DNA of 64,000 bases, from positions 428,553-492,552 of the forward strand of contig NC_090014.1 of the NCBI RefSeq assembly GCF_036417845.1, read 5' to 3'. The notes beneath the pieces are model-generated. The model had not been told where the DNA came from. It ran no database searches and saw only the letters and a program-made list of their open reading frames with translations. Source of the stretch: Apteryx mantelli (taxonomy: Eukaryota > Chordata > Aves > Apterygiformes > Apterygidae). How positions within the stretch are numbered: position 1 is the stretch's first letter; the number at the start of each line of letters is the position of its first letter. This document shows positions 1 through 57,196 of the stretch, piece after piece. The position numbers and the translations under genes were made by a program.

Positions 1-88
1 CCCTGGGACCCCCCCACCCCACCCCACCCCCAGGGGGGACCCGCCCGGACGCCTGGGCCCTCCCTGACCCCCCCCGGTGTCTCCGCAG

Positions 89-2352
89 CCCCCCCAGCTG
101 CCGCCGAGGCCCCCCCGAGCCCCCCGGGCCGCCCACGCCGTCGTCCACGTGGGCACCGAGACCCTCGTGCTGCACGGTGAGCCGGGACCCCCGGAACGGG
201 GCTGGGGACCCCCAAAAGGGGGATAGGGACCCCCGGAATGGGGCTGGGGACCCCTGAAAGGGGGTGGGGACCCCCGGAATGAGGCTGGGGACCCCAAAAG
301 GGGGATAGGGACCCCGGAACGGGCTGGGGACCCCCAAAAGAGGGATAGGGACCCCCAAAATGACAATAGGGACCTCCAGAATGGGGCTGGGGACCCCTGA
401 AATGGGGGTGGGGACCCCCAAAAGGGGATAGGGACCCCCAAAATAGGGATAGAGACCCCCGAAATGGAGCTGGGGACCTCAGAACAGGGATAGGGACCCC
501 CGGAACAGGGCTGGGGCCCCCTGAAATGGGGGTAGGGACCCCCGGAAGGGGGCTGGGGACCCCCAAAATGGGCATAGGAACCCCCAGAATGGGGCTGGGG
601 ACCCCTGAAACAGGAGTAGGGACCCCGAAATGGGCCTGGGGGACCCCCCAAAATGGGCCTGGGACCCCCAAAATGACAATAGGGACCCCAGAAGGGGGCT
701 GGGGACCCCCAAAATGGGAATGGGGACCCAAAAAGGGTTAGAAAACCCTCGAAGAGTTTGGGGACCCCCAAAATGGGCTGGGGACCTTCAGGAGGGACCT
801 AGGGGGCCCCCCCCCAAAAGGGGCTGGGGACCCCCCAGGGGGAGCTGGGGGACCCCCAAAATGGGGCTGGAGACCCCCCAAAATGGGCCTTGGGACCCCA
901 AATGGGGCTGGGGACCCCCCATATGGGGCTAGGGCCCCCCAAAGGGGGTTGAGGGGCCCTGGGGGGGGTTGGACCCTGATTTTGGGGGGGTCGGGGGGCC
1001 CTGGGGGGGTTCAGAGCCCCGTTTTGGGGTCTGGGGGGGGTCGGGGACCCCCGTTTCGGGAGCCCCCCGCTGACGCCGCCCCCAGGTTCTGCCCCCCGCA
1101 AGCCCCTGGGGGGCGCGAGAGCCGCGACCCCCCCGACCGCGACGAGGACAAGTACCGGGCGGCGGCGGGTGCTCAGGTGGGGCCGCGAAACGGGGCGAAA
1201 CGGGTGGAAACGGGCAAAACGGGGGGGTGGGGGGGAAAACGGGGAGCCCCCCCCAGCGGGCGCTCAGGTGTGGGCCGCGAAACGGGGTGAAACGGGGTGG
1301 AAACGGGCAAAACGGGGGGGTGGGGGGGAACGGGGAGCCCCCCCCCAGCGGGCGCTCAGGTGGGGCCGCGAAACGGGCGAAACGGGGCGGAAACGGGCAA
1401 AACGGGGGGGGGGTGGGGGGGGAAACGGGGAGCCCCCCCCCGGCAGGCACTCAGGTGGGGCCGCGAAACGGGGTGAAACAGGGCAGAAACAGGCAAAATG
1501 GGGGGACGGCGGCACAGGCTCTGGTGGGGACAGTGAAATGGGGTGAAAACGGGGCAAAATGGAGCAAAATAAGGGGAAATGGGGTGATAACGGAGAGAAA
1601 CGGGGGCTTGCAGCGTGCGCTCTGCGTGGGAGCAGGGGAAACGGGGCAGGACGGGGTGAAACGGGGTGAATTGAGGCAGGATTGGACAAAACGGGGTGAA
1701 ACCGGGGCGGAATGGGGTGAAACAGGGCAAAATAGGGCAAAACGGGGGCAGGACGGGGCTGGAACGGGGGGGCAAAAATGGGGCGGGATGAGGCAAAACG
1801 AGGCGAAACCAGGGACAAAACGGGCAGAATGGGACAAAATGGGCCAGGTGGGGGACGGAACGGGGCAAAATGGGGCAGAATGGGGACAAAAAAGGGGTAA
1901 AGGGGGGGCAGGAAGGATTCGGGGGGGGTTGGAGGGATTTGGGGTCAGGGAGGATTGGAGGGTCTGGGGGATCAGGAAGGATTCGGGGGGATCAGGAAGG
2001 ATTTGGGGGGTCAGGAAGGATTTGGGGGGGTTCAGAAGGATTCGGGGGTCAGGAAGAATTGGGGGATTTGGAGGGATTTGGGGGGTCAGGAAGGATTTGG
2101 GGGGGTCCAGGGGGATTCAGAGGGATTTGGGGGGGGTCCGGGGGCCCCTGACCCCCCCGTCCCCGCTCCGGCCCGCAGGTGCTGGCCCCGGGGGCGCCCC
2201 CCCCGCCCCCCCGCTGCTGGTCCTGGCCCTGGGGGGGGGCCCTGGCCTTCGTCGCCCTCCTCGTCCTCCTGGCGCGCCTGGGCCGGGCGGCCGCCGCCAA
2301 CGACCCCGCGCTGGAGCCGCTGCGCAACCCCCACCTGCGCGTGGGGCCCTGA
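89..2352 (+). CDS. ZFPL1: ZFPL1, C-terminal part (5' end outside window)
   Basis: Zinc finger protein-like 1 is a cis-Golgi integral membrane protein. Three coding segments are visible: 89-176, 1086-1176 and 2179-2352 (stop TGA 2350-2352). They encode VVHVG, then APRKP and an acidic DEDKYR stretch, then a hydrophobic helix ([19 protein letters not shown]) followed by ARLGRAA and the C-terminal NPHLRVGP. All are hallmarks of the ZFPL1 tail. The N-terminal B-box/RING-like zinc fingers lie upstream of base 1. Splice sites are canonical. Segment 2 needs one base removed from the G run near 1109, and segment 3 has frame changes in the C run (about 2197-2212) and the 9-G run (2231-2239), probably consensus errors. 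ZFPL1 next to TMEM262 and VPS51 matches human 11q13.1. Identification is by recalled sequence similarity. Confidence 0.9.
177..1080 (+). repeat. Minisatellite in ZFPL1 intron, ~20-bp unit
   Basis: Degenerate tandem units of about 20 bp (GGGGCTGGGGACCCCCAAAA-like) fill almost the entire intron up to about 960, then pass into G-rich simple sequence. No gene is seen inside. Confidence 0.85.
1160..1500 (+). repeat. Tandem copies of a ZFPL1 exon end with its splice donor
   Basis: The last exon bases and donor (GCTCAG|GTGGGG, exon end 1176) recur at 1267, 1359 and 1454 (last copy ACTCAG|GTGGGG), giving periods of about 91-95 bp. Each unit carries a few exon bases, the donor and A/G-rich intron sequence (CGAAACGGGG). 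Confidence 0.8.
1500..2150 (+). repeat. Minisatellites in the last ZFPL1 intron
   Basis: Two consecutive arrays. From about 1500 to 1900 the unit is AAAACGGGGCGAAATGGGG-like. From about 1905 to 2150 it is a ~20-bp unit containing TCAGGAAGGATTTGGGG. Confidence 0.8.
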
Positions 2353-2890: not shown

Positions 2891-2928
2891 GAGGGCAAAG
2901 GGCCCCGGGGTGCCATTAGGCTGTGGCG

Positions 2929-4470: not shown

Positions 4471-4539
4471 GGGGGGGGCGACGACGGCGACGGGGGGGCG
4501 GCTGCGGGGCGGCCACCGAGCTCGGCGACGGGCCCGGGG

Positions 4540-5378: not shown

Positions 5379-8300
5379 ATGGCGGAGGCGGCGGCGGCGG
5401 CCGGGGGCAGCCCCGAAGCCGGGGCCGAGGCCGATCCGGGGCCGAGCCGGGCCGGCGACGGCCCACGGGCTGCTCCAGCGCTACTACGGGCTGCCCGAGG
5501 CGGCGGGGGAGGCCCCGGACCCCGCCGACATTAACGGGGCCTCACTTCGACCCGGAAGTGTTCCTCACCAAGGTGACCTTTGACCCCCGGCGCCCCTAAG
5601 GCGACCCCCGCCCCACTCCCCCCCCCGATCCCTATGGGCCCCTATGGACCTCCATAGGGGCAGCGTTGGGGGGGGCCCGGGGGGCAGTTGGGGGCCCCGG
5701 GGGGGCAACTAGGGCCCCTGGGATGGTCGCTGGGGCATATTTAGGGGCTCAGGGGGGCGGTTGGAGGCCCGAGGGGGGGCAAATAGGGGTCCCGGGGGGC
5801 AGTTTTGGCCCTGTTTTGTCCCCCTAGCTGTGCAGCAGGTGCCCCCTGGGGCAGTTGGAGGTCCTGGAGGAGGTGTTAGGGGTGCTGGGGGGCAGTTAGG
5901 CCCTTTCAGGGGCAGTTGTGACCCCCTTTTTCCTCCCCATCTGCACAGTGAGTCCCCCCTGGGGCAGTTGGGGGTCCCGGGGGGGCAGTTGTGACCCCTC
6001 TTGCCCCCCCAGCTGCGCAGCGAGTGCCCCCTGGGGCAGTTGGGGGGCCCAGGGGGGGCAGTTGGGGCTTCGGGGGGGGGCAGTTGTGACCCGTTCTGCC
6101 CCCCAGCTGCGCAGCGAGTGCCCCCTGGGGCAGCTGCTGGCCCGCGAGGCCGAGCTGGTGCGGCAGATCCGGGCCCTCGACAGCGACATGCAGACGCTCG
6201 TCTACGAGAACTACAACAAGTTCATCTCCGCCACTGGTGCGGGTCCAGGTGTCCGGGGAGGGGGCCCAGGCGTCCGCGGGGGGGGGGCCCAGGCGTCCGG
6301 GGAGGGGGGCCCAGGTGTCCAGGGGGGGACCCAGGTGTCCGGGGAGGGGCCCAGGTGTCTGGGTGCTGGTTGCAGTACAGTGATGCTGGGGGGGCTCTGG
6401 GAGGGGCCCAGGCGTCCGGGGAGGGAGCCCAGGCATGGGGGGGAAGGTGGGCCCAGGTGTCTAGGGGGTCCGAAGCGTCCAGAGAACCCAGGAGGGGACC
6501 CCAGGCGTCCGGCTCAGGGGCCCAGGCATCCGGGAGAGGGACCCAGGTGTCTGGGGAGGGGGCCCAGGTGTCCGGAGAGGACCCAGGCATCCGGGGGGGA
6601 CCCCAGGGAGGGACCCAGGCGTCCGGGGAGGACCGGGACACGCAGGTAGGTGTCGGGGTGGGGGCCCAGGCATCCGGGGGACCCAGGCGTCCGGGCCGCG
6701 CCCTTTCTCCCCCCCCCCCCAGACACCCATCCGGAAGATGAAGGCCGACTTCCGGCGCATGGAGGCCGAGATGGACGGCCTGGCCGCCAACATGGCCGCC
6801 ATCACCGCCTCCAGCGCCCGCGTCAGCGCCGCGCTCCAGGACCGGCACCACCGCGGCGCCCAGCTCGCCGTGCGCTGGGGGGGGCCGGGGGGGGCAGATC
6901 TGAGGGGGTGGGGGGTCCTAGGGGGCAGATATGGGGGGTTGGGACAGATCTGAGGGGTTTGGAGGGATCCTGGGGGGGCAGATTTGGGGGGTTGGGGGCA
7001 TTGGGGATACCTGGGGGGCAGATCTGGGGGGTTTGGGGTAGATCTAGGGAGTTGGGGGGTCCTGGGGGGGCAGATCTGGGGGTGTTGGGGCAGATCTGGG
7101 GGGCTGAGGGGGACCCTGGGGGGCAGATTTGGGGGGTTGGGGGTAGATCTAGGGAGTTGGGGGGTCCTGGGGGGGCAGATCTGGGGTGTTGGGGCAGATC
7201 TGGGGGGCTGAGGGGGACCCTGGGGGGCAGATTTGGGGAGTTGGGGTAGATTTGGGGGGGCTGAGGGGGACCCTGGGGGGCAGATTTGGGGGGTTGGGGT
7301 AGATCTGGGGGTTGGGGGGACCCTGGGGGGGCAGATTTGGGGGGTTGGGGTAGATCTGGGGGGTTGGGGGGACCCTGGGGGGCAGATTTGGGGGGTTGGG
7401 GCAAATCTGGGGGGATGGGGGGACCCTGGGGGGCAGATCTGGGGGGTTGGGGGCAGATTTTGGGGGTTGGAGGGGCCCTGGGGGAGGCAGATCTGGGGGG
7501 GGAGGTTCCAGTCCCTAGCCCTGCCCCTGTGCTCTGGCCACGCCCCTTTGCTCTGGCCCCACCCCTGCCCCCAACCCCGCCTCCTTTGCCCTGGCCACGC
7601 CCCCATCACTAGCCCCGCCCACTCCCTTGCCTGGGCTCCCCCTTTTGCCCTGGCCCTGCCCCACCCCCCTGCTCTGACCCCACCCCACTCCTGACCCCGC
7701 CCCATCAGCGGTGGCCCCGCCCCTCTGTTTTACCCTGCTCTGTGATCCCGCCCCCAAGCATGCTTCTGCCTTGGCCCCACCCACATCACCCACATTCTGA
7801 CTCCACCCACCCCTGAGCCTGCCCCCACTCTGACTCCACCCCTGCCGTGGCTCCACCCACATTCTGGCTCTGCTCCTCTCCCAGCCACACTCTTGCTGTG
7901 ACCCCAGTGGTGCCTTAGCCCTGCCCCATCTCTGACCCCGCCCCCCGGCCTGGCCCCGCCCCCCGGGCCTGGCCCCGCCCCTTCCCCCCGCAGGGGTGCA
8001 CACGCTGCTGCGGAAGCTGCAGTTCCTGTTCGAGGTGCCGGGGCGGCTGCGGCGCTGGGCGGAGCCGGGGGGGGACGCGGGGCGGGCGGTGCGCTGCCAC
8101 GCCCGCGCCCGGGCCGTGCTGCGCCAGTACCGCCACCTGCCCTCCTTCCGCGCCATCGAGGACGAGAGCCGCGCCATCATGGCCGCCCTGGCCCAGCGCC
8201 TGCGCGCCCGCCTCCGGTGCGTCCTGCCCCTGCCCGCGCCCGTCCCACCCCGGGGGCGTTCACCCTGGGGGCTACTGACCGCCGCCCCGGGAAGCTTGCT

Positions 8301-11300
8301 CGCTGGGGGGTGTTCACTCTGGGGACTACTGACAACCGCCCCGGGTCAGCTTGCTCGCTTGGGGGGTGTTCACTCTGGGGACTACTGACAACTGCCCCAG
8401 GAACCTTGCTCGCTGGGGTGGTGTTCACTTTGGGGGCTACTGACCACCGCCCTGAGAAGCTTGCTCACTGGGGGGTGTTCACTCTGGGGACTACTGACAA
8501 CCACCCCGGAAGCTTGTTCACTGGGGGGGGCGTTCACTCCAGGGCCTACTGACGACTGCCCGGGAAGCTTGCTCGCTGAGAGGCATTCGCTCTGGGGACT
8601 ACTGATAACCCCTTAAAACCCTTTTTTTGGGGATGTTTACCCTAGGGCTTACTAACGACCATCCCAAAAACTTTGTTTCCTGAAGATGTTCGTTCTGGAA
8701 CCTACTAATAGCATTTATAGTATTATGTTACTATTTATTAAAATATTATTTAGTAGAGCATTATTAATTAACGAGTTTACTGATAAGTTTTGCAATATTA
8801 TGGTTTTTGCAGTACCTTAGTAGCATTGTTAACTCTGAAATCTACTGCTTTTTATTTTTTATAATGATTGTTGGCACTGAAACCTGATAGCCGACTTTAC
8901 TAATTCCAGGTTTTTTGCGTGTTATCTTTGTTAATCTGAAACCTAGTGGTGTCCGTTTTATGGTTCATCTCGCTTCTCCCCCAGGGACGGCGCCTCCGAC
9001 CCCAAGGAGCTGGCCGAGTGCGTGGAGCTGCTGCTGCAGCTGGAGGAGCCGCCCGAGGAGCTGTGCGAGGAGTTCCTGGCGCACGCCGGCGCCCGCCTCG
9101 AGGCCGAGCTGGCCGCGCTGGCCGCCGAGCTGCCGCCGGACGATGCCGATGACGCCGCCGCCGCGCCGCCGCCCGCCTCCGACATCCTCGACTTCGTCGA
9201 CCGCGGCTGCTCCGCCTTCGTGGGCAACTGTGCCTGCTGGTGACCTCGTACCGGGCGCTGTTCGAGGGGCGCGCGGGGGCGGCGGGCGCCCGCGGCCGCC
9301 TGGAAGCCTTCGCCGCCGCCCTGGCCGCCCGCTACTTCGCCCTGGTGGAGCGGCGCCTGGCGCTGGAGCGCGGCCTGGGCGACAACTCGCTGCTGGTGCG
9401 GGCGCTCGACCGCTTCCACCGCCGCCTCCGCCCGCTGCTCGACTGCTGCCGCGAGGCGACGCGGGCGACGGCGGCGGCGGCGGCAACGCCGGGCGACGCC
9501 TTGGTGGCGCGGGCGGCGCGGCAGCGCGTCGGCCGCTACCTGGGCGCCTGCAGAGCTTCTTCCTGGGCTGCCTGGGCGACGTGCGGCAGGCGCTGGCCGC
9601 CCCCCGCGGCCCCGGCAAGGAGGCGCCGCCGCTGCCCGACCTCCTGGCCGCGCTGGCCGCCTCCGCCCTGGCGCAGCTCAAGGCCGTGCTCGCCTACGTG
9701 CAGCTCTTCACCGCCAAGGACGTCGCCTTCGCCAGCCTGCCCTACTTCAAGGGTGCGCCGGCGGGGGGCGGGGGGGGGGGGCCTGGGGTGGGTTCGGGGG
9801 CCCGGGATGGGTTTTGGGGTCCCTGGGGTGGTTTTGGGGGTCCCTGGGGTGGGTTTGGGGGTTCCCAGGGTGGTTTTGGGAGTCCTTGGAGCGGATTTGG
9901 GATCCCAGGGTGGATTTGGGGATCCCGGGGTGGATTTGGGGTTTGCTGGGGTGGGTTGGTTTGGGGGTCCTGGGGCGGTTTGGGGTCTCTAGGTGGGTTT
10001 GGAGGTCCCTGTGGTGGTTTGGGGGTGGCAGCGGTGGTTTGGGGGGTCCCTGGGGTGGGTTTGGGGTCTCTGGGGTAGTTTGGGGGTGGCACAGGTGGTT
10101 TTGGGAATCCCTGGGGTGGTTTGGGGGGTTCTCAGGGTGGGTTTGGGGGGATTTCTGGGGTGGTTTTGGGGGTCCCTCGGGTGGGTTTGGGGTTCCTGGG
10201 GTGGGTTTGGGGGGTCTCTGGGGCAGTTTGGGGGTGGCAGGGGTGGTTTGGGGGTCCCTGGGGTGGTTTGGGGGGTTCTCAGGGTGGTTTTGGGGGTCCC
10301 TGGGGTGGTTTGGGGGGTTCTCAGGGTGGTTTTGGGGGTCCCTGGGGTGGTTTGGGGATCCCTGGGGTGGGTTTGGGGGTGGCAGGGGTGGTTTTGGGAA
10401 TCCTTGGGGTGGTTTGGGGGGGTTCTCAGGGTGGGTTTGGGGGATTTCTGGGGTGTTTTGGGGGTCTCTCGGGTGGGTTTGGGGTTCCTGGGGTGGGTTT
10501 GGGGGGTCTCTGGGCAGTTTGGGGTGGCAGGGGTGGTTTTGGGGGTCCCTGGGCAGTTTGGGGGTGGCAGGGGTGGTTTTGGGGGTCCCTGGGGTGGGTT
10601 TGGGGTTCCAGGGTGGATTTGGAGGGTCTCTGGGGCAGTTTGGGGGTGGCAGGGGTGGTTTTGGGGATCTTTGGGGTGGGTTTGGGGTTCCCGGGGTGGT
10701 TTTGGGGGTCCCTGGGGTGGTTTGGGGGATCTCTGGGAGGTTTGGGGGGTCCCTGGGGCGGTTTGGGGTGGCAGGGGGCAGTTTGGGAGTGGCAGGGGGC
10801 GGTTTGGGGGGTCCCTGGGGCAGTTTGTGGGGGGCAGGGATGGTTTGGGGGTCCCCAGAGTGGTTTTGGGGTCCCAGGGCAGTTTGATGGGTCTCCGGGG
10901 TGCTTAAGGGTCCCTGGGGCAGTTTGTGGGTGGCAGGGGGTGGTTTGGGGGGGGCCCTGGGGTGGTTTGGGGTCCCTGGGGTAGTTCAGGTTTTCTGGGG
11001 CAGTTTGGGGGTCCCTGGGGCAGTTTGGGGGTAGCATGGGGCAGTTTGGGGTCCCCAGGGCAGCTTGAGGGGTCTCTGGGGGCAGTTTGGGGGATCTCCA
11101 GGGTGGTTTGGGGTGTTTCTGGGGCAGTTTTGGGGGTCCTCAGGTTTGTTTGGAGGGTCCCTGGGGTACTTTGGGGTCCCCGGGGGCAGTTTGGGGTCTT
11201 GATGCCCGTAGGCGTTTTTGGGGGCACAGAAGACGTTTTTGGCGTTCTTGATGCCGCATTTTGGCCATTCCCGACCGTTTTCAGGGCCAAACGTGCCGTT

Positions 11301-14300
11301 TTTGGCGCAAGAGGAGTTCTGCGTGGCAGCAGTGCACAAGGAGGGACATCGGTGTCTATAGGGGCACGTTGATGCCATAACCATTTTTTGGGGCGCAGGA
11401 GCCGTTCCCGGGGCTCCCGAGGCCGCGTTTCGGGCGTCCCCGGCCGTTTTTCGGGGCCAAACCTCCGTTTTTGGCGCAGGGGGAGTTCTGCGTGGTGGCG
11501 GTGCTGCGAGGGGGACATCAGTGTCTATAAGGGGGATGTTGATGCCCGTGGGTGGTTTTTGGGCGCAGGAGCCGTTCCCGGGGCTCCCGAGGCCGCGTTT
11601 CGGGCGTCCCCGGCCCGTTTTTCGGGGCCAAACGTGCCGTTTTTTGGCGCAGGGGGAGTTCTGCGTGGCGGCGGTGCGCGAGGGGCTGGTGGTGGCCTTC
11701 GTGCGCTGGCTGTGCCGCACGGCGCGCGGCTTCTGCGAGGGCCCGGCCGAGCGGGGGCCCCGGCGGCGCCGCCCGCCCTGCTGCTGCTCCTCGCCCGCCT
11801 CTGCCTCGACTACGAGGCCGCCACCATCAGCTACATCCTCACCCTCACCGACGAGCAGTTCCCCCCCCAGGTGAGCCCCTTCGCCGCCTCTCCCCGTCCC
11901 GTCCCCCCAAAAATGTCCCCGAGTGTCCCCAAATCCCCCCCCCGTGCTTCTCCGCGGCTCTGGGTCTGCTCCAGATGCGGTCGTGGGTGCAGGGACGCGA
12001 GGATCTTCTCTTGCGGCCCAAAATGTCCCCGTGAGGGCCCAAAATGTCCCCATGAGGGCCCAAGATGTCCCCCAGGACCCTAAGATGTCCCTGGGGTCCC
12101 AAGTGTCCCCAAGGTACCCCCAAACATCCCCAAATCCCCCCCGTGCTCCTCTGCGGCTCCGGGTGCACTCGGGACGTGGTGGTGGGTGCAGGGGCGCGGG
12201 GATCTTCTCTTGCGTCCCCAAAATGTCCCCGTGAGGCCCCAAAATGTCCCTATGAGGACCCAAGATGTCCCCCAGGACCCTGAGATGTCCCTGGGATCCC
12301 CAAGATACCCCAAATGTCCCCCGGTTCTCACACATAGCTCTGTGGCCTTGGGTGCCCCCAGGACATGGTGCTGGGGACAAGGGTGGGTGCAGAGGCGTGA
12401 GGAGCCTCCCTGTGACCCCAAAATGTTCCCAAGGGAAGCCAGAATGTCCCCAGGAACCCCCTGAGATGTCTTTAGACTCCTCCGGTGTTCCATAAGAACC
12501 TGAATTGTCCCCAAAGGGTCTTCGATGTCCCCAAGTTGTCCCATGTGCTGCTCCTGGTTGTTGTGGTTGCCATGGCCCAGGAGAGCCCCGTACGTCCCCG
12601 AAGCGTCCCCAAGGGGCCCCCGAAATATCCCCAAGGGGACCCAGAACGTCCCCAGGGACCCCCCAAGATGTCCTCAGACTCTTCTAGTGTCCCATAAGAG
12701 CCTGAATTGTCCCAAGGGGTCTTCAGTGTCCCCAAGTTGTCCCATGTGCTGCTCCTGGTTGTTGTGGCGCCAAGACCAGGAGAGCCCCGTATGTCCCTGA
12801 AATGTCCCCAAGGGGACCCAGAATGTTCCCCCGGGACCCCCCAAGATGTCCCCAGACTCCCCAGTGTCCCATAAGAGCCTGAATTGTCCCCAAGGGGTCT
12901 TCGGTGTCCCCATGTCGTCCCATGTGCTGCTCGTGGTTCTTGTGGGCGCCAAGGCCCAGGAGAGCCCCGTATGTCCCCGAAACGTCCCCGAGGCGGTCGA
13001 GACGTCCCTGAGGGCCACCTCCCGCCCGCAGGACGGGGGGACGCCGGGGGACGCCGGGGACGGCGCTGTGCGCCGAGGCCCGCGAGGCGGCCCAGCGCCT
13101 CCTCGACCACTACGTGAAGGTGCAGGGCGCCGCCGTGGCCCAGATGCTGCGCAAGAGCGTGGAGACGCGCGACTGGCTCGGCACCGTGGAGCCCCGCAAC
13201 GTCCGCGCCGTCATGAAGCGGGTGGTCGAGGACACCACCGCCATCGACCTCCAGGTCCGGGGGGGTCTGCGGGGTCTAGGGGGGCTCCCTGGGGTGTTTA
13301 GGGGGTCCTGGGGGAGCCCAGACGTCCCCATGGGAGTCTTGGGGGTCTTCAAAAGGTTCTTGGGCATTTAGGGGGTTCTTGGGGTCCCTGAGGGGTCCTG
13401 GGGGAGCCCAGACGTCCCCATGGGAGTCTTGGGGGTCTCCAAAGGGTTCCTGGGGCATTTAAGGGGGTTCTTGGGGGTCCCTGAGGGGTCCTGGGGAGCC
13501 CAGACGTCCCCATGGGAGTCTTGGGGGTCTTCAAAGGGTTCTTGGGCATTTGGGGGGTTCTTGGGGGTCCCTGAGGGGTCCTGGGGAGCCCAGACGTCCC
13601 CATGGGAGTCTTGGGGGTCTCCAAGGGGTCCCTGGGGGACTTTGGGGGTCCCTAGAGGGTCCCTGGAGCGTTTAGGGGTTCCTGGGGGTCCCTGAGGGGT
13701 CCTGGGGAGCCTAGATGTCCCTGGGGGGAGCCCCTGGGGTTTGGGGGGGCTTGGGGGGGGGTCCCGGTTGTTTCTGGGGGTGCCAAGGGGGTTTTGGGGG
13801 TGCCTGGGGGTTTGGGGGGGTCCCAATCGTTTCTGGGCCGCTGGGGGGTTTGGGGGGTCCGATTGTTTCTGGGGGGGGTTGGGGCAGTTCTGGGGGTTTT
13901 GGGGGTTTTGGGGGGGTCCCGGTTGTTTCTGGGGGTGCCAAGGGGTTTTGGGTGCCCGGGGGGGTTGGGGAGGTCCCGGTTGTTTCTGGGGGCGCCGAGG
14001 GGGTTTTGGGGGGTTCTGGGGGATTTGGGGGTGTCCCGTTTTTTTCTGGGGGTGCCAGGAGGGTTTTGGGGGGGTTCTGGGGGTTTTGGGGGGGTCCCGG
14101 TTGTTTGTGGGGCGCCGGGGGGTTTTGGGGGGTTCTGGGGGATTTGGGGGTCCTGGTTGTTTCTGGGGGCGCCGGGGGGGTTTGGGGGGGTTCTGGGGGG
14201 TTTGGGGCTCCCGGTTGTTTGTGGGGCGCCGGGGGGTTCTGGGGGGGCGCGGGGCGCTTTCGGGGCGCTGACGGCCGGGGGGGGGGGGCCCCCGCAGGTG

Positions 14301-17444: not shown

Positions 17445-18035
17445 GACACAGCCACGCACACGCTAAGGACGCGGGACGCGCACACGGGATCGGGGCCGGG
17501 CACCGCTGCCTCGACCCGGCGCCCATGGAGCGCAGCGTGGTGGAGCTGCTCTGCGAGCGGGGCTAGGACACGCCACGCACACGCCAAGGACACGGGATGG
17601 GGGCCGGGCACCGCTGCCTCGACCCGGCGCCCATGGAGCGCAGCGTGGTGAGCTGCTCTGCGAGAGGGGGTAGGACACGCCAAGGACACGCCAAGGACAC
17701 GGGACGCGCACGCGGGATCGGGGCCGGCACCGCTGCCTCGACCCGGCGCCCATGGAGCGCAGCGTGGTGGAGCTGCTCTGCGAGAGAGGCTAGGACACGC
17801 CAAGGACACGCCAAGGACGCGGGACGCGCACGCGGGATCGGGGCCGGGCACCGCTGCCTCGACCCGGCGCCCATGGAGCGCAGCGTGGTGGAGCTGCTCT
17901 GCGAGAGGGGCTAGGACACGCCACGCACACGCAAGGACACGGGACGCACGCGGGATGGGGGCCGGGCACCGCTGCCTCGACCCGGCGCCCATGGAGCGCA
18001 GCGTCGTGGAGCTGCTCTGCGAGCGGGGCTAGGAC
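17376..18035 (+). repeat. Six tandem copies of the VPS51 stop-codon region
   Basis: The last 23 codons ([20 protein letters not shown]...) with the stop codon and about 50 bp of 3'UTR (ACACGCCAAGGACACG) repeat at 17376, 17498, 17606, about 17726, 17846 and 17964, with periods of 108-122 bp. Copies end in TAG; copies 3 and 4 carry one-base deletions. Confidence 0.9.
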
Positions 18036-18199
18036 ACGCCAAGGACACGCCAAGGACACGCTACACACATGCCATGCATGGATGACGCTATGGGCAGCAG
18101 GGATACGGCACTTGCAGCGACATGTGTTGACACACGTGTGCCCCGTGGTGGGATCGCGTGTGGGAGGCGGACGTGGGACCCAGCTCCCTGCACACGTTG

Positions 18200-18642: not shown

Positions 18643-18648
18643 AATAAA
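18643..18648 (+). terminator. VPS51 poly(A) signal AATAAA
   Basis: GGAAACAATAAACACACG is non-repetitive, lies about 1.2 kb after the first stop, and is followed within 20-30 bp by GT-rich sequence. Confidence 0.75.
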
Positions 18649-24432: not shown

Positions 24433-24632
24433 NNNNNNNNNNNNNNNNNNNNNNNNNNNNNNNNNNNNNNNNNNNNNNNNNNNNNNNNNNNNNNNNNNNN
24501 NNNNNNNNNNNNNNNNNNNNNNNNNNNNNNNNNNNNNNNNNNNNNNNNNNNNNNNNNNNNNNNNNNNNNNNNNNNNNNNNNNNNNNNNNNNNNNNNNNNN
24601 NNNNNNNNNNNNNNNNNNNNNNNNNNNNNNNN
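24433..24632. other. Assembly gap (200 N)
   Basis: Run of exactly 200 N between ARL2 and BANF1. The round length suggests a placeholder; true size and content are unknown. Confidence 0.99.
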
Positions 24633-44500: not shown

Positions 44501-47500
44501 CCCGGGGAGCCGCCCGGACGCCTGGGCCCGCTCACCCGCGTCCCCCCCCCACCCCGGGGAGCCGCCCGGACGCCTGGGCCCGCTCACCCGCGTCCCCCCC
44601 CCCACCCCGGGGAGCCGCCCGGACGCCTGGGCCCGCTCACCCGCGTCCCCCCCCACCCCGGGGAGCCGCCCGGACGCCTGGGCCCGCTCACCCGCGTCCC
44701 CCCCCCCCACCCCGGGGCGCCGCCCGGACGCCTGGGCCCGCTCGCCCGCGACCCCCCCCCACCCGGGGAGCCGCCCGGACGCCTGGGCCCGCTCGCTCGC
44801 GTCCCCCCCCCACCCCGGGGAGCCGCCCGGACGCCTGGGCCCGCTCACCCGCGTCCCCCCCCCGCCCCGGGGCACCGCCCGGACGCCTGGGCCCGCTCAC
44901 CCGCGTCCCCCCCCACCCCGGGGAGCCGCCCGGACGCCTGGGCCCGCTCACCTGCTCGCTGTGTCCCCCCCCACCCCGGGGGCGCCGCCTGGACGCCTGG
45001 ACCCGCTCACCCGCGTCCCCCCCCCACCCCGGGGAGCCGCCCGGACGCCTGGGCCCGCTCACCTGCTCGCCGTGTCCCCCCCCCACCCCGGGGAGCCGCC
45101 CGGACGCCTGGGCCCGCTCACCTGCTCGCCGCCGGCCTCGCGCAGCTGCTGCAGTTGCCGCAGGCGCCGGCTCTTTTCCAGCTGCTTCTGCAGCTCCTGC
45201 TCGGCCTCGTCCTCCTCCAGCGCCGCCGGCGAGCCGGGGGGGGGCTCGTCTGCGCGGGGGGGGGGGGCGTCAGGGGCCCAGGCGTCCGGGGATGCTCCCT
45301 CTCTCCCTCCCACCCTGATCCCACTGACCCGGGGGGCCCAGGCGTCCGGGGGCTCCCCCCCCCACCTCATTGAGGGGCCCAGGCGTCCGGGGACTCCCCC
45401 ACCCAGGGGCCCAGGCGTCCGGGGGCTCCCCCCCCACACCCCATTGAGGGGCCCAGGCGTCCGGGGACTCCCCCACCCAGGGGCCCAGGCGTCCGGGGGC
45501 TCCCCCCCCACACCCCATTGAGGGGCCCAGGTGTCTGGGGACTCCCCCCATCTCCTCTACGACGAGGGGCCCAGGTGTCCGGGGCCTCCCCCCCACCTCC
45601 CCCACAACAGGGGGCCCAGGCGTCCGGGGGCTCCCCCCCCACCCCATCAAAGGGCCCAGGCATCCGGGGCCTCCCCCCCCCCACCCCATGGAGGGGGCCC
45701 AGGCGTCCGGGGGTGGGGGGGGGCCAGGCGTCCGGCTCACCGTCGCTGCTGATGTCCATGCTCTCGACGCGGGTGTCGTCGGAAGGGGGGGCGGCGGGGG
45801 GGGGGGCCGGGCCCTGCCCTTCCTCCCCCCCCCGGGCGCCGCCGCGGCCCCCCCCCCTTCCTCCTCCTCCTCCTCCTCCTCGGCCTCCTTGGGCCCCCGC
45901 CGGCCTCGGCCCCGCGACCTGGGGGGGGCAAAAATGGGGGGGGGAGTTAGACCCCCCCTTGACAGAGCCGCTCTTGCCCCGGCCCCTCCCACGCCCAAAA
46001 CCCCCCTCTTGCCCTCAGCCCCCCCCATGACCCCTCTATTACCCCTATTTGCCCCCCCACCAAGGATCCTACTGCCCCCCCCCAAGCGTCTCTTGCCCCT
46101 GTGAACCCCCCCCGGACGCCTGGGCCCCCCTCCGGACGCCTGGGCCCACCTGGAGCCGAAGTCTCTGCGCGTGTCCCCGCCCCCCCCCCGGACGCCTGGG
46201 CCCACCTGGAGCCGAAGTCGCCCCACGTGTCCCCCCCCCCGCCCGGACGCCTGGGCCCCCCCGGACGCCTGGGCCCACCTGGAGCTGAAGTCGCCCCGCG
46301 TGTCCCCCCCCGCGCCCGGACGCCTGGGCCCACCTGGAGCCGAAGTCGCCGCGCGTGTCCCCGCCCCCCCCGGACGCCTGGGCCCCCCCCGCCCGGACGC
46401 CTGGGCCCACCTGGAGCCGAAGTCGCCGCGCGTGTCCCCGCCCCCCCCCGGACGCCTGGGCCCACCTGGAGCCGAAGTCTCCGCGCGTGTCGCCCGGCGC
46501 CAGCGGCAGCAGATCGTCCGCCCGCAGCGGTTTCTCCTTGCGCCGGAGCCGTCGCACGCGGCGCCGCGTCTTCCGGAAGGCCACGGCCTGCGCGGGGGCG
46601 CTTACCCATGATGCCCCGGGGCTCGCGCCAACCCCCCCGGTACCCATGATGCTCCGGGGCTCACACCAACCCCCCCATTATCCACAGCCCCCCATTACCC
46701 ATGATGCCCTGGGGCTTGCGCCACCCCCCCCATTACCCACAAGCCCCCAGGGCTCACGCCAACCGCCCCTCATTACCCACAACCCCCCCATTACCCACAA
46801 CCCCCTGGGGCTCACGCCAACCCCCCCCCCCCAGTTACCCACAACCCTCCTGTTACCCACAACCCCCCGGGGCCCGTGCCAACCCCCCCCATTACCTACA
46901 ACCCCCCCCCCGGTTACCCACAAACCCCCCATTACCCACAATGCCCCGGGGCTCACACCAGCTCCCCCCCCATTACCCACAACCCCCCAGGGCTCACGCC
47001 AACCCCCCCCATTACCCACAACCCCCCCCATTACCCACAAACCCCATTACCCACAACCCCCCCCCATTACCCACGATGCCCCGGGGCTCCCGCCAATCCC
47101 CCCCATTACCCACAACCACCCATTACCCCCATCCCCCATTACCCACGATGCCCCGGGGCTCCTGCCAACCCCCCCCCAGTTACCCACAACCCCCCCCCCG
47201 TTACCCACGATGCCCCGGGGCTCCTGCCAACCCCCCCCCCCGGTTACCCACAACCCCCCATTACCCACAATGCCCCGGGGCTCCCGCCAACCCCCCCCAT
47301 TACCCACAACCCCCCCCATTACCCACAACCCTCCATTACCCACAACTCCCCGGGGCTCATGCCAACCCCCCCCGTTACCCACAACCCCCCGGGGCTCACG
47401 CCAACCCCCCCCATTACCCACAACCCCCCCCATTACCCACAATGCCCCGGGGCTCGCGCCCAACCCCCGCCCCCAGTTACCCACAACCCCCCATTACCCA

Positions 47501-50500
47501 CGATACCCAGGGCTCCTACCAACCCCCCCCAATTACCCACAAGCCCCCACTACCCACGATGCCCCGGGGCTCCCGCCAACCCCCCCCATTACCCACAACC
47601 TCCCCCATTACCCACAATACCCCAGGGCTCCTACCAACCCCCCCCAATTACCCACAACCCCCCATTACCCACAATGCCCCGGGGCTCCCGCCAACCCCCC
47701 CCGTTACCCACGATGCCCCGGGGGGGACGGGACCCACCTGCTCGTGGGGGCCGAGGAAGTCGGGGGCCAGGCGGGGGGGGGGCAGCGCCAGGCTCTGCGG
47801 CGCCCCGAGGGGGGGGGGGGCGGGAGGCCGGGCGGGGGCGGGGCCAGCGCCGGGCCCCCCCCGCCGGGGGGGCAGCCGGAGAGCCGTGGGGGAGCGGGCG
47901 GCCCCCAGCGCCTCCGCGTACTGCGGCAGCAGCTCCTGCGGCAACACGCCAAGGACACGTGACAACACGCCAAGGACACGTGACAACACGCCAAGGACAC
48001 GTGACAACACGCCAAGGACACGCCAAGGCGGGGGCGTCACGCGTGTGCGCAGGGGGGGTCACGCGTGGGGGGGCGGGCGGCCCCCAGCGCCTCCGCGTAC
48101 TGCGGCAGCAGCTCCTGCGGCAACACGCCAAGGACACGTGACAACACGCCAAGGACACGTGACAACACGCCAAGGACACGCCAAGGCGGGGGGTCACGCG
48201 TGTGCGTGGGGGGGTCACGCGTGGGGGGGGCGGGCGGCCCCCAGCGCCTCCGCGTACTGCGGCAGCAGCTCCTGTGACACGTGACAACATGTGACAACAT
48301 GCCAAGGACACGTGACAACACGCCAAGGACACGCCAAGGCGGGGGGGGTGCGTGTGCACGGGGGGGTCACGCGTGGGGGGGGGGCGGGCGGCCCCCAGCG
48401 CCTCCGCGTACTGCGGCAGCAGCTCCTGCGGCAACACGCCAAGGACACGTGACAACACGCCAAGGACACCTGAGAACACGCCAAGGACACGTGAGAACAC
48501 GCCAAGGACACGTGAGAACACGCCAAGGACACGCCAAGGCGGGGGGTCACGCATGTGCACGGTGGGGGCCACGTGTGTGGGGGGGGCGAGTCCCCCCTCC
48601 CCCAGCTCTTCCGCGTGTTGGAGCCGAGTCCAAAACACGCCGTGACACGGGGTGACACGCCACAACATGGGATGACACACGTGTTCCCGGCTCTGCGTGC
48701 TGGGACATGGGAAAAAACACGGGGCAACACAGCAGCATGGGGGGGGACAAGGGGACACACAGGGGCCCCAGGGGGACCCCGAGGACACGGGGGGACCCCG
48801 AGGACACGCCAAGGCCACGTCACCCTCTCGGGGACACGTGTCAACACCCCGGGGACAGGCGGGGGACACGCCAAGACCCTGAGGACACGGGGGGACCCCG
48901 AGGTGCCGCGTGGGGACCTTGGGGACGTGGGGAACATGCAGGGGCCACCTGGGGACCTCGAGGACACGTGGGGACACGGGAGGGGACACACGGGGAGACA
49001 TGTGGGGACCTTGCTGACACGGGGGGACATGAGAAGGGACACGCGGGGGGCCACGTGGGGACCTCGAGGACACGTGGGGACCCAGGAGGCCATTTCGAGA
49101 CCCCGAGGTGCCACGTTGGGACCCCGACAGCCCCCCGAGGGACACGTCCCCCTGCCGAGGGGCCACGTGGGACATTGGTGACACGGGGGGGAAGCGTGGG
49201 GACCTCAAGGACACGTGGGGACACGGGAGGGGCCACGTGGGGACCTCGAGGACACGTGGGGACACGGGAGGCCATTTCAAGACCCCGAGGCGCCACGTGG
49301 GGCGCGTCCCCCCGCCGAGGGGCTGCGTGGGGACCTTGGGGACATGTGGGGACACAGGAGGGGACATGCAGGGGCCACATGGGGATCTCAAGGACACACG
49401 GGGACCCAGAAGACCATTTTAAGACCCCAAGGTGCCACGTGGGGACCCCGAGGTGCCACGTGGGGATCTTGGGGACACGTGGGGACACGGGAGGGGACAC
49501 AGGGGAGCCACGTGGGGGCCTTGGTGACGTGTGGGGACACGGGAGGGGACATGGAGGGGCCACATCAGGTCCTCAAGAACATGGGGACCCAGGAGGCCAT
49601 TTCGAGACCCCGAGGTGCCACGTGGGGCGCGTCCTCCTGCCGAGGGGCCGCGTGGGGACCTTGGGGACACGGGAGGGGACACAGGGGGGGCCACATCAGG
49701 ACCCCAAGAACATGGGGGACCTGGGGGGCCACGCCGAGACCCCGAGGTGCCACGTGGGGCGCGTCCTCCTGCCGAGGGGCCGCGTGGGGACCTTGGGGAC
49801 ACGGGAGGGGACACAGGGGAGCCACGTGGGGGCCTTGGTGACACGTGGGGACACGGGAGGGGACACAGGGGGGGCCACATCAGGACCTCAAGAACATGGG
49901 GGACCTGGGGGGCCACGCCGAGACCCCGAGGCGCCACGTGGGGCGCGTCCTCCTGCCGAGGGGCCGCGTGGGGACCTTGGGGACACGGGAGGGGACACAG
50001 GGGAGCCACGTGGGGACCTTGGTGACACGCGGGGACACAGAAGGGGACACGTAGGGGCCATATCAGGTCCTCAAGAACATGGGGACCCAGGAGACCATTT
50101 CGAGACCCCGAGGTGCCACGTGGGGCGCGTCCCCCTGCCGAGGGGCCACGTGGGGACCTTGAGGACACGGGAGGGGACACAGGGGAGCCACGTGGGGGCC
50201 TTGGTGACGTGTGGGGACACGGGAGGGGACACGGAGGGGCCACATCAGGTCCTCAAGAACACGGGGACCCAAGAGGCCATTTTGAGACCCTGAGGCGCCG
50301 TGTTGGGACCCCGAGGCGCCACGTGGGGCGCGTCCCCCTGCCGAGGAGCCGCGCGGGGACCTTGGGGACACGCGGGGACAGGGGAGGGGACACGGGGGAG
50401 GTGACACTCACGGCGGGGGGGGCCGGCGGGCTCCTCGCAGGGGTCGTAGCCCGGCTTGCGGCGCCGCAGCTCCAGGCCCCGACGCGCCGCCTCCGCCTCG

Positions 50501-53500
50501 GCCAGCGCCGCGTTCACCAGCACGTCCTCGGCCTCCTCCAGCACCCCTGGGACACCGCGGGGGGACATGGGTGACACCCACGGACACCCCTGGGCACCCA
50601 CGACCCCCCCCAGCACCCACGACCCCCCCCGGACACCCACGACCCCCCCCGGGGCACCCACGACCCTTCCCCCCCCCCCCCCCCCCGGGGTGCCGCCTCC
50701 GCCTCGGCCAGCGCCGCGTTCACCAGCACGTCCTCGGCCTCCTCCAGCACCCCTGGGACACCGCGGGGACATGGGTGACACCCTGGGACACCCACGGACC
50801 CCCCCGGCACCCACGGATCCCCCCCGGGGCACCCACGACCCTTCCCCCCCCCCCCCCGGGGTGCCGCCTCCGCCTCGGCCAGCGCCGCGTTCACCAGCAC
50901 GTCCTCGGCCTCCTCCAGCACCCCTGGGACACCGTGGGGACATGGGTGACACCCTGGGACACCCACGACCCCCCCCAGCACCCATGACCCCCCCCCGGGC
51001 ACCCACGACCCTTCCCCCCCCCCCCGGGGTGCCGCCTCCGCCTCGGCCAGCGCCGCGTTCACCAGCACGTCCTCGGCCTCCTCCAGCACCCCTGGGACGT
51101 CACGGGGGGACATGGGTGACACCCTGGGACACCCACGGACCCCTCCCGGCACCCACGGATCCCCCCCGGGGTGCGGGGACACGTGGGGGGACCCCCCCGG
51201 AGCACAGGGACGTGGGGACGCACAGGGGAGCAGCATGGGGACTGGGGGGGGGGTGCAGGGACACAGCAGGGGACACAGGGACCCCGGTGGGGCACATGGG
51301 GATGTGGCAGGGGACATGCGGATGTGGATGGGGGGGGACACGGGGACACAAGGACATGGACAGGGACACGGGGACGCGTCATGAGGCCCCACCAGGACGC
51401 GAGGACACAACAGGGGACGCGTGGGGACACACGGACACATCACAGGGAGCCCGCTAGGACACAGGGACACAACAGGGGACATGGGGACAGGGCAGGGACC
51501 CTGCCGGGACACGGGGACATGGCGGGGGGGGGGGGACACGGCGATGTGGTGGGGACCCCACTGGGGCAGGAGGACACGGGGGACACAAGAACGTGGACAG
51601 GGGGACGTGCCGCAGGGACCCCACCAGGACATGGGGACACAACAGGGGACAGGGGGACATGGGGACGTAGGGGACACATTGCATGAACCCCACCCAGACG
51701 CGGGGACACAACAGGGGACACAGGGACGTGGCACGGGGACTCTGCCGGGACATGGGGACGTGTCACAGGGGGACACGGGGACATGGCAGGGACCCACCTC
51801 GGGGCCCGGAAAGGACACGAGAGGGGACAGAGGGACAGGAGAAGGGACACCAGCGGGGCACAGAAACGATGTGTGGCCACATCGGTGATGCCACCGTGAC
51901 GCGGAGGGGACACGGGGACACGTTGGGGGGACACGGGGACACCAAGAGCACCCCGCAGCGCCCCAGGAGGACGTGGGGACACGTCGGGGGACACCAAGAG
52001 CACCCCGCAGCACCCCATGGGGACACGGGGACACGTCGGGGGACACCAAGAGCACCCCACAGCACCCCGGGAGGACACGGGGACACGTTGGGGGACACCA
52101 AGAGCACCCCACAGCACCACCGGGAGGACGCGGGGACACGTCGGGGGACACCAAGAGCACCCCGCAGCACCCCGTGGGGACACAGGGACACGTTGGGGGA
52201 CACCAAGAGCACCCCGCAGCACCCCGTGGGGACACGGGGACACGTCGGGGGACACCAAGAGCACCCTGCAGCACCCCGGGAGGACACGGGGACATGTTGG
52301 GGGACACCAAGAGCACCCCGCAGCACCCCGGGAGGACACGGGGACGCGTCGGGGGACACCAAGAGCACCCCGCAGTGCCCCGGGAGGACACGGGGACACG
52401 TTGGGGGACACCAAGAGCACCCCGCAGCACCCCGGGAGGACACGGGGACACGTTGGGGGACACCAAGAGCACCCCGCAGTGCCCCGGGAGGACACAGGGA
52501 CACGTTGGGGGACACCAAGAGCACCCCGCAGCACCCCGTGGGGACACAGGGACACGTTGGGGGACACCAAGAGCACCCCGCAGCACCCCGTGGGGACACG
52601 GGGACACGTTGGGGGACACCAAGAGCACCCCGCAGCACCCCGGGAGGACACGGGGACGCGTCGGGGGACACCAAGAGCACCCCGCAGTGCCCCGGGAGGA
52701 CACGGGGACACGTTGGGGGACACCAAGAGCACCCCGCAGCACCCCGGGAGGACACGGGGACACGTTGGGGGACACCAAGAGCACCCCGCAGTGCCCCGGG
52801 AGGACACAGGGACACGTTGGGGGACACCAAGAGCACCCCGCAGCACCCCGTGGGGACACAGGGACACGTTGGGGGACACCAAGAGCACCCCGCAGCACCC
52901 CGTGGGGACACGGGGACACGTCGGGGGACACCAAGAGCACCCTGCAGCACCCCGGGAGGACACGGGGGACATGTTGGGGGACACCAAGAGCACCCCGCAG
53001 CACCCCGGGAGGACACGGGGACGCGTCGGGGGACACCAAGAGCACCCCGCGGGGACACAGAAGGACACGGGGACACGTCGGGGGACACCAAGAGCACCCC
53101 GCAGTGCCCCGGGAGGACACGGGGACACGTTGGGGGACGCCAAGAGCACCCCGCGGCGCCCCGGGAGGACGTGGGGACGCGTCGGGGGACACCAAGAGCA
53201 CCCCGCGGCGCCCCGGGAGGACGCGGGGACGCGTCGGGGGACGCCAAGAGCACCCCGCAGCACCCCAGGAGGACGCGGGGACACGTTGGGGGACACCAAG
53301 AGCACCCCGCAGCACCCCAGGAGGACACGGGGACACGTCGGGGGACACCAAGAGCACCCCGCAGCACCCCGTGGGGACACGGGGACGCGTCGGGGGACAC
53401 CAAGAGCACCCCGCAGCACCCCGGGAGGACACGGGGACATGTTGGGGGACACCAAGAGCACCCTGCAGCACCCCAGGAGGACACGGGGACACGTCGGGGG

Positions 53501-56500: not shown

Positions 56501-57196
56501 GGTCCCCCCCAAAGCCCCATAACCGCCCCCAGGGACCCCCAGGAACCCCCCCAAGCCCCATAACCGCCCCCAGGGACCCCCAGGTCCCCCCAAAGCCCCA
56601 TAACCGCCCCCAGGGGTCCCCCAGGTCCCCCCCAAAGCCCCATAACCACCCCCAGGGACCCCCAGGAACCCCCCCAAGCCCCATAACCGCCCCCAGGGAC
56701 CCCCAGGGACCCCCCAAAGCCCCATAACCGCCCCCAGGGACCCCCAGGTCCCCCCCAAAGCCCCATAACCGCCCCCAGGGAGACCCCCCAGGACCCCCCC
56801 CCCCTCACCGGGCTCGTCCCGCTCGTCCCGCCGCTCCCTCTTGCCCCGCCGCCCCGCGTCGGACTCGGCTCCGCCTCGGCCATGGCCGCCGCCGCCGCCG
56901 CCGCGTCCGGGCTCCTCGTTCCCGCCGCGCCGCGACGAGCCGCCGCCGCCGCCACCGCCGCCGCCGCTGCCGCGCTCGCCCCGGAGCGGCTGCGTTTGCC
57001 GCGCCGCTCGCCGCCGCGGTGCCGGTGCTTGCGGTGCTCGCGGGGCCGCCCCGCCGCGCTGCTGCTGCTGCTCCCGCCGCCGCCGCCGCTTCCCCCCGCC
57101 GCAGCCGCCGCTGTCGCTGGGGGCCGCCGCAGCCGGGGCCTCCTCAGCGCCGGCCTCGGCCCCGCCGCGCTCCCGGTGCTTCTTGGAGGAGCCCAT
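35546..57196 (-). CDS. SART1: SART1, U4/U6.U5 tri-snRNP protein (Snu66 homologue)
   Basis: SART1 is a spliceosome protein needed for tri-snRNP recruitment. Twenty exons, listed 5'-3': 57196-56809, 55952-55898, 55026-54971, 54841-54715, 54619-54514, 54376-54299, 54199-54100, 50546-50412, 47935-47738, 46587-46466, 45918-45741, 45249-45122, 43678-43504, 41078-40968, 40289-40202, 40086-39996, 39093-38957, 38869-38780, 36661-36540, 35564-35546. They total about 830 codons (human 800, also 20 exons as recalled). Landmarks: [12 protein letters not shown], a basic/Gly-rich N-terminus, [118 protein letters not shown], terminal NTITK. One-base frame problems occur in exons 8, 11, 13, 14 and 17 (e.g. 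an extra base at 38981-38983). Exon 9 is Pro/Ala-rich and divergent from mammals. Confidence 0.96.
35585..36530 (-). repeat. SART1 intron 19 ~10-bp repeat
   Basis: About 85 copies of a decamer-like (T/C)CCCAGTGC(C/T) interspersed with CATCCCAGT, CGTCCCAGT and GGCTCCCAGT. It fills the intron completely. Confidence 0.9.
36662..37470 (-). repeat. SART1 intron 18 distal minisatellite
   Basis: Units of ~22 bp and ~44 bp: CACGTCACCCCCAAAACCGG and GCACGGAAACATCCCCCCGA. Confidence 0.88.
37640..38765 (-). repeat. SART1 intron 18 higher-order repeat, 206-bp period
   Basis: Short GGGACC(C)CAAAATGGCTCAGG modules are arranged in a 206-bp super-unit. The marker GACTCCAGATGGGACC recurs at 38056, 38262 and 38468, with a variant (GACCCCAGATGGGACC) at 37850. 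Confidence 0.9.
39057..39925 (-). repeat. Six copies of the SART1 exon 17 start with acceptor
   Basis: The exon start [11 protein letters not shown] with the preceding acceptor is repeated near 39260, 39440, 39610, 39785 and 39920, in addition to the true exon edge at 39093. Spacing is about 135-180 bp. One copy reads [11 protein letters not shown]. Confidence 0.88.
40290..40965 (-). repeat. Three diverged copies of the SART1 exon 14 end with donor
   Basis: The exon 14 end [25 protein letters not shown] has diverged relatives [19 protein letters not shown] with donors near 40425, 40588 and 40779. Each is followed by GGGGTTTCGGGGCGTTT-type intron, period about 165-190 bp. Confidence 0.82.
41080..41825 (-). 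repeat. SART1 intron 13 proximal arrays
   Basis: 41080-41220 is a perfect-looking decamer array (GGGGACACGC / GTGAGGACAC). 41260-41820 has GGGGACACGGGGACATGG units in ~100-bp modules (GGACAGAGAGACACAAGGAC). Confidence 0.85.
41826..43545 (-). repeat. Ten tandem copies of the SART1 exon 13 end with donor
   Basis: The exon end [13 protein letters not shown] and the following donor (GTGCG) recur at about 41826, 42032, 42239, 42426, 42612, 42799, 42983, 43190, 43336 and 43504 (true exon), spacing 146-207 bp. Between them are AAAACTGCCCCGAATCACCC units. Several copies keep the reading frame and donor; the most distal one has lost the ATG/donor context. Confidence 0.92.
43690..45120 (-). repeat. 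SART1 intron 12 minisatellite (~50-60 bp) carrying splice-donor-like sequence
   Basis: About 22 units, each with GCCCGGACGCCTGGGCCC, then GCTCACC(C/T)G, then a C run and CCCCGGGGAG. Read on the SART1 strand every unit contains GGTGAGCGGGCCCAGG, identical to the true exon 12 donor flank. Units near 44945 and 45062 also carry the exon-end triplets for (S/G)EQ. Confidence 0.9.
45270..45735 (-). repeat. SART1 intron 11 dispersed-motif repeat
   Basis: About ten units of 40-60 bp with GGGCCCAGGCGTCCGGGG and CTCCCCC(A)CCCA. The motif orientation is opposite to that in intron 12. Confidence 0.85.
46095..46500 (-). repeat. Six copies of the SART1 exon 10 end with donor
   Basis: The exon end DTRGDFGS(R) and donor GTGGGCCCAGGCGTCCGG recur at about 46148, 46204, 46278, 46332, 46409 and 46466 (true exon). 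Period is 54-77 bp. The dispersed motif starts within the donor. Confidence 0.88.
46600..47725 (-). repeat. SART1 intron 9 ~40-bp minisatellite
   Basis: About 27 units of CCCATTACCCACAA(C/T) followed by GCCCCGGGGCTC(A/C)CGCCAAC and a C run. Confidence 0.88.
47890..48620 (-). repeat. Copies of the SART1 exon 9 start with acceptor
   Basis: The exon start [14 protein letters not shown] and its acceptor are found at 47935 (true), 48114, 48271 and 48425. A degraded fifth relative lies near 48590-48620. Spacing is 154-179 bp. Between them are AACACGCCAAGGACACGTGAC units. Confidence 0.88.
48690..50400 (-). repeat. SART1 intron 8 higher-order repeat (~150-190 bp)
   Basis: Modules CCACGTGGGGACCTTGGGGA, ACACGGGAGGGGACACAGGG, CGCGTCCTCCTGCCGAGGGG and CCATTTCGAGACCCCGAGG combine into eight or nine larger units. 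Confidence 0.85.
50485..51091 (-). repeat. Four copies of the SART1 exon 8 start with acceptor
   Basis: [20 protein letters not shown] with its acceptor TCCCAG occurs at edges 50546 (true exon), 50752, 50923 and 51091. The exon parts are almost identical. Each truncated copy ends at the same codon and runs into a C/G homopolymer. Confidence 0.92.
51180..51900 (-). repeat. SART1 intron 7 GGGGACA-type minisatellite
   Basis: GGGGACACAGGGACGTGG and CACAACAGGGGACA modules in ~60-100 bp units. Confidence 0.8.
51930..53965 (-). repeat. SART1 intron 7: 52-bp VNTR, about 39 copies
   Basis: Highly regular 52-bp units with the fixed parts GGGGGACACCAAGAGCACCC, CGCAGC(A/G)CCCC and GGAGGACACGGGGACACG, varying at T/C in CGT(T/C)GGG. 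At 2 kb it is the longest homogeneous array in the window. Because 52 is not a multiple of 3, and the unit lacks stops in most frames, it is open for hundreds of codons on both strands. This is not evidence of coding. Confidence 0.93.
55040..55890 (-). other. SART1 intron 2: A/T-rich, mostly unique sequence
   Basis: Unlike neighbouring introns it is A/T-rich, with loose GGGTAATTGGGAGTATT-like modules. It contains no recognised gene or element. Confidence 0.6.
55985..56790 (-). repeat. SART1 intron 1 ~42-bp minisatellite
   Basis: About 18 units, CCCATAACCGCCCCCAGGGA followed by CCCCCAGG(T/A)(C/A)CCCCCCAAAG. Confidence 0.9.

Follow-up and report, generated by a model that had tools for sequence, protein, structure and literature searches.

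Thirteen edges of coding segments in the 64-kb window (the whole stretch of DNA that was analyzed) have been copied into the adjoining non-coding DNA, where they stand as arrays of two to ten copies each. This exon-edge pattern is real. We suggest, with a probability of roughly 0.78, that the arrays represent exon stuttering, in which tandem duplications spanned a coding limit by chance, survived by way of the one edge left intact, and were then multiplied. Four of the eight genes of the window are affected.

The surroundings of these arrays are unusually repetitive. GC content is 60–82% per 2 kb, 546 tandem-repeat rows are distributed across the 64 kb, and tandem repeats make up 76.5% of the bases in introns, 12.7% of those in exons and 60.5% of the remaining non-exonic sequence; the first of these figures corresponds to the simple-repeat loading of introns by which exon stuttering is recognized. 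One example is a 39-copy array of a 52-bp unit that lies wholly within the SART1 intron between exons 7 and 8 (51935–53963). The last exon of EIF1AD contains a coding tandem repeat (34979–35078; four copies of a 24-bp unit) in its acidic tail, and similar expansion has therefore taken place inside a coding region as well. The GC content is compatible with a dot chromosome, and the likeness of the region to a published description (PMC12954441) suggests that it is probably a bird dot chromosome.

The curated set comprises 49 exons and 41 introns in eight genes: ZFPL1 (its end), VPS51, GPHA2, ARL2, BANF1, EIF1AD, SART1 and SLC3A2 (its start). Database matches identify BANF1 (to BAF, 1.3e-55), ARL2 (3.8e-94) and SART1 (to tri-snRNP protein, 1.4e-99 and 2e-73). 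Two further genes were matched at the family level only, one through a VPS51/EXO84/COG1 N-terminal domain and one through the eIF-1A family, and from reading we take them to be VPS51 and EIF1AD; the names ZFPL1, GPHA2 and SLC3A2 are presumed in the same way. Two exon limits in GPHA2 are approximate. A minus-strand gene with exon-like pieces lies at 3283–4500, and the two protein pieces from it that were searched returned no Pfam family.

The arrays are listed below. Copies are counted in register with the true edge included, weaker or off-register hits having been dropped by eye (rows before dropping: ZFPL1, 7; BANF1 exon 1, 9; BANF1 exon 2, 3; SART1 exon 8, 7; exon 9, 7; exon 12, 23; exon 13, 16). 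Automatic extension of homology into the GC-rich exon overshot for the VPS51 stop array and for SART1 exons 10 and 12; the lengths of the exonic parts were set by eye and the junctions then checked.

1165..1505, plus strand: ZFPL1 exon B (1086–1176), array at the donor; 4 copies counting the true edge, of a unit of about 93 bp with 12 bases from the exon.
5800..6133, plus strand: VPS51 exon 2 (6107–6236), array at the acceptor; 4 copies counting the true edge, the others at 5828, 5941 and 6013, with about 27 bases from the exon; outer limit set by eye.
11270..11685, plus strand: VPS51 exon 6 (11653–11870), array at the acceptor; 3 copies of a unit of about 170 bp.
17373..18060, plus strand: VPS51 exon 10, array at the stop codon; 6 copies of a unit of about 119 bp that contains the last 72 coding bases, the stop and 3′ sequence, without a splice site.
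28181..29056, minus strand: BANF1 exon 1 (28988–29113), array at the donor; 5 copies of a 177-bp unit with about 69 bases from the exon.
26176..26552, minus strand: BANF1 exon 2 (26080–26226) acceptor array; one extra copy at 26347–26397, 2 copies with the true edge.
50486..51171, minus strand: SART1 exon 8 (50412–50546), array at the acceptor; 4 copies with about 61 bases from the exon.
47894..48470, minus strand: SART1 exon 9 (47738–47935), array at the acceptor; 4 copies with about 42 bases from the exon; limits set by eye.
46106..46496, minus strand: SART1 exon 10 (46466–46587), array at the donor; 6 copies with about 26 bases from the exon, spaced 55/77/55/73/56.
43930..45129, minus strand: SART1 exon 12 (45122–45249), array at the donor; about 22 units of about 52 bp, of which 3 retain the 8 bases from the exon; marginal.
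41820..43542, minus strand: SART1 exon 13 (43504–43678), array at the donor; 10 copies of a unit of about 186 bp with 39 bases from the exon, the outermost copy lacking the splice site.
40405..41026, minus strand: SART1 exon 14 (40968–41078) donor array; unit about 187 bp, 4 copies.
39060..39921, minus strand: SART1 exon 17 (38957–39093), array at the acceptor; 6 copies of a unit of about 176 bp with 34 bases from the exon.

The exonic part ranges from 8 to 72 bases. In BANF1 exon 2 a further truncated piece near 26527, with the same junction as the full copy, was seen by eye only and listed by no search. An A(A/T)TAAA motif lies at 18643, beyond the VPS51 stop array.

The reality of these arrays is best judged from the splice borders as a whole. 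When the 60-bp exon edge at each of 82 splice borders was scored against the adjacent intron, with 40 shuffles each, ten borders gave SW scores of 28–60, above both their own shuffle maximum (12–21) and their distal-intron maximum (13–20); a few of the other 72 lay slightly above the shuffle maximum, and none exceeded both controls. All ten had already been listed in the first-pass annotation. The donors of ZFPL1 exon B and SART1 exon 12, with 12 and 8 exonic bases, are non-significant by exon sequence alone and are counted on the structure of the array across the border, exon 12 marginally, so that edge copies in the adjacent intron are recorded at 10 of 82 borders by exon sequence and at two more by array structure. 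The thirteenth array, the VPS51 stop-codon repeat, has no splice site. The start edge of GPHA2, which scored SW 23 where its best shuffle reached 22, was left out of the count. Border scoring, copy search and junction check together place all thirteen arrays where that annotation had them, and its copy numbers agree for six of them once weaker and off-register hits are dropped. Its statement that an array always runs from exon into intron describes the twelve splice-border arrays well; the stop array runs instead into 3′ non-coding DNA.

The copied sequence begins at the exon border. A search of each whole exon against both adjacent introns (82 exon-intron pairs, with the stop, ZFPL1 and SART1 exon 12 arrays outside its scope, and with some SART1 exon 10 and VPS51 exon 6 copies merged or missed) returned 36 significant exon copies, 30 of which have their source within one base of the border, as in exon stuttering. 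The remaining six are three SART1 exon 14 copies in which the last 14 bases have decayed, one truncated exon 13 copy, and two weak hits. No inverted copy rose above threshold among the 82 pairs.

Twelve arrays have two or more extra copies, and in every one of them the copies have the same exon-side breakpoint and the same non-exonic sequence beyond it. A common breakpoint argues for one founding capture followed by expansion, as opposed to repeated copying from the exon. Expansion appears to have proceeded in blocks of two units in some arrays, since spacing alternates in SART1 exon 10 (55/77/55/73/56) and TRF reports periods of about two units (342 in exon 17, 132 in exon 10). The copies of SART1 exon 14 differ by 30% from the true edge and by 1.9% among themselves, and we infer that an older, diverged edge was later re-amplified. 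The shared breakpoints and the dimeric spacing bear out the earlier suggestion of local amplification. Microhomology at the exon-side breakpoints was considered (mean percentile 0.62, 12 arrays, KS P = 0.085) and is not claimed; the intron match there is only slightly better than at other exon positions.

Could the copies be artefacts of assembly? Base quality is limited. The true exons SART1 14 and 17 change frame by comparison (exon 17 against the human protein), and a gap of 200 Ns interrupts the window at 24433–24632, from which the assembly may be a scaffolded one. Against this, the copies differ from one another in substitutions, indels and unit length, and the general structure of comparable intron repeats in chicken PHF8 was confirmed in raw nanopore data, according to the main-text parts of PMC12954441. 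We consider an artefactual origin quite unlikely. A mechanical check finds a stop-free frame in all 49 exons, so that changes of frame are visible only by comparison: BANF1, ARL2 and parts of SART1 are continuous with the human proteins, some other true exons change frame, and by eye there appear to be shifts within VPS51 and SART1 exons at 8985–9752, 17183–17444, 38957–39093 and 40968–41078. The VPS51 and SART1 shifts are probably base errors in G/C-rich sequence, and base-level comparisons therefore carry error. The description of the coding parts as conserved and in frame is only partly right: SART1 exons 14 and 17 depart from it by comparison, and the extra copies are without frame bias.

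Selection might have retained the extra edges as alternative splice sites. The splice dinucleotide, AG or GT, is kept in 40 of 43 copies. Isolated substitutions between copies are less frequent in exon parts than in intron parts (2.5% vs 5.7%; P = 3e-7, with pairs that are non-independent), a difference unexpected under neutrality, unless the intron parts, being sub-repetitive, evolve more quickly. In BANF1 exon 1 all four extra donors (28270–28810) would retain an open, in-frame 177–717 bp. The explanation is nonetheless very unlikely in our judgment. If the copy sites were used, the retained length would be divisible by three in 15 of the 43 cases, which equals chance, and would also be open in five, four of them in BANF1 exon 1; SART1 exon 14 copies have drifted from their exon as described above, and the exon and intron parts of the VPS51 exon 6 units are about equally diverged from the true unit (18.8% and 19.6%). 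The 43 copies show no sign of frame bias or of selection for frame, and differences by codon position (6.5, 9.1 and 9.4%) lack a clear third-position excess. A first estimate of 7.3% for exon and 23.2% for intron parts was biased, the exon part having been chosen by homology and the intron parts being sub-repetitive, and no selection on copies is claimed. The stronger proposal, that the copies are usable splice sites under selection and that individuals differing in copy number make different isoforms, is more doubtful still; if it were true, BANF1 would be the first place for it, with its four open, in-frame extra exon 1 donors and units of about 59 residues.

A further question is whether the exon border is special. 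We counted as a crossing any intronic array with at least 8 exonic bases, capped the room in the exon at 120 bp, replaced three composite TRF periods (342, 471 and 132) by their basic units, and added the BANF1 exon 2 and SART1 exon 9 arrays, which are not in the TRF list. Twelve of 104 intronic arrays cross a border, the marginal SART1 exon 12 array among them. The number expected is 15.7 if introns are collapsed, 11.0 for random placement of arrays at the span they now have, no more than one unit being allowed in the exon, 7.3 at present intron lengths (P = 0.051), and 50.1 if all introns are 100 bp long, far more than observed (P(≤12) = 3e-24). For the 40 arrays with units of at least 50 bp, the same 12 crossings compare with 10.7 (collapsed introns), 32.7 (100-bp introns), 8.0 (random placement; P = 0.072, borderline) and 5.3 (present lengths; P = 0.003), an excess under the last null only. 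None of the 64 arrays with shorter units crosses a border, where 4.9 crossings would be expected with collapsed introns. Crossing arrays have longer units than others (median 170.5 vs 31 bp, P = 3e-5), a direction that geometry predicts. Units include less exon sequence than a uniform draw would give (KS P = 0.013), and interference of longer exon copies with splicing may be the reason.

Geometry is a loose prediction, and the expected count depends strongly on the intron length that is assumed. Among seven introns of 87–137 bp, six have no array and the seventh has one small array, which suggests that introns probably started short. Had all arrays been born in introns of about 100 bp, many more than 12 crossings would be expected. 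Either most arrays postdate the growth of the introns, or selection removed many crossings. The window data do not show a border excess, and the looseness of the null leaves room for a modest one.

These counts bear on whether some process linked to splicing, such as R-loops, co-transcriptional breaks or a spliced RNA template, starts repeats at exon borders, an origin for which the first-pass annotation had allowed. That 12 of 82 splice borders carry arrays is in keeping with such an origin, as is the excess of long-unit crossings over the present-length null and its borderline counterpart under random placement. We regard it as unlikely, for several reasons: (i) the VPS51 stop array expanded without a splice site; (ii) donors and acceptors are equally represented among the splice-border arrays, six of each; (iii) the copies are tandem and include intron sequence; (iv) the 104 arrays taken together show no excess under the collapsed-intron or random-placement null; and (v) of 34 introns longer than 200 bp, only 21 have a positive G skew on the sense strand (P = 0.23), a weak test that leaves the R-loop model unsupported. 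The ends of coding sequences carry an array in 1 of 14 cases, compared with 12 of 82 splice borders (Fisher P = 0.68, on small numbers, and with two of the 12 judged by structure and the CDS ends by score alone); by score alone the figures are 10 of 82 and 1 of 14. A special splice-site mechanism is unnecessary for the data of the window.

Chance capture of a coding limit, followed by multiplication, remains the reading that we favor. Its setting would be local, direct tandem expansion in a hyper-repetitive, GC-rich and gene-dense region. As a first step, a tandem duplication of about 50–190 bp would by chance span the limit between coding and non-coding DNA; it would survive with its innermost copy still joined to the exon, leaving the mRNA unchanged if that site is used. 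The captured edge would then be multiplied by unit-level exchange or slippage within non-coding DNA, a step we propose because breakpoints are common to all copies and unit spacing is dimeric. Finally, the copies would drift from the coding sequence, as they have in SART1 exon 14 and as the outer ZFPL1 units suggest. The limits of an array would be set by selection on the true exon and not by a splice-site mechanism. Slippage at G/C runs, replication stress and meiotic unequal exchange are candidate triggers.

What the window contributes is a base-level description of exon stuttering across eight genes, four of them affected, together with a null in which long units and growing introns lead one to expect border-spanning units without a splice mechanism, in a number that depends on intron length. 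The stop-codon array points to a rule of coding limits and not of splice sites. Should copy number differ among individuals, as in chicken, these introns would offer a natural experiment on spliceosomal choice between nearly identical sites.

The first-pass annotation knew of no named phenomenon of this kind, a statement that is now outdated: "sequence stuttering" or "exon stuttering" has been named on chicken dot chromosomes (Hron et al. 2026, PMC12954441), the only source in which we found these terms. The main-text parts of that study report 115 genes and 236 introns, 190 of them on dot chromosomes, with exon parts of 20–187 bp (median 36) in 1–44 copies (median 4), more than 90% of copies starting within one base of the border, and length variation in 183 of 192 such introns. 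Those parts include a shuffled-sequence control and no test of borders against geometry, and VPS51, SART1, BANF1 and ZFPL1 are absent from the main text. No paper was found that joins at least three of SART1, VPS51, BANF1, chicken and dot chromosome. As far as we have checked, the pattern is newly documented in these genes and is of an already named kind; the mechanism, as far as the evidence goes, is an ordinary one.

Several known systems invite comparison. Dot chromosomes and repeat-filled avian introns have been described (PMC9974502, PMC6792250). In PMC4974935, a tandem duplication across an intron-exon border likewise copied splice signals; there a single duplication made a new, spliced intron, whereas here the copies lie within existing introns. 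Minisatellite-driven exon and intron changes in human segmental duplications (PMC2812944) similarly illustrate how tandem units at exon-intron boundaries can change gene structure, but those units are shorter (30 bp on average) and half of the cases are in coding sequence; the extra copies of this window are external to the true exon. Chicken exon stuttering, as set out in the main-text parts of the study, is the closest counterpart. One array here repeats a stop codon and would fall outside a screen of exon against intron such as theirs. In both sets of arrays the lateral part of an exon, with its donor or acceptor, is found as imperfect direct tandems in the adjacent intron, the source lies at the border, the copies per array are few, the introns are filled with simple repeats, and the exon part has much the same median length, 36 bp in chicken and 39 bp in our 13 arrays (lengths set partly by eye).
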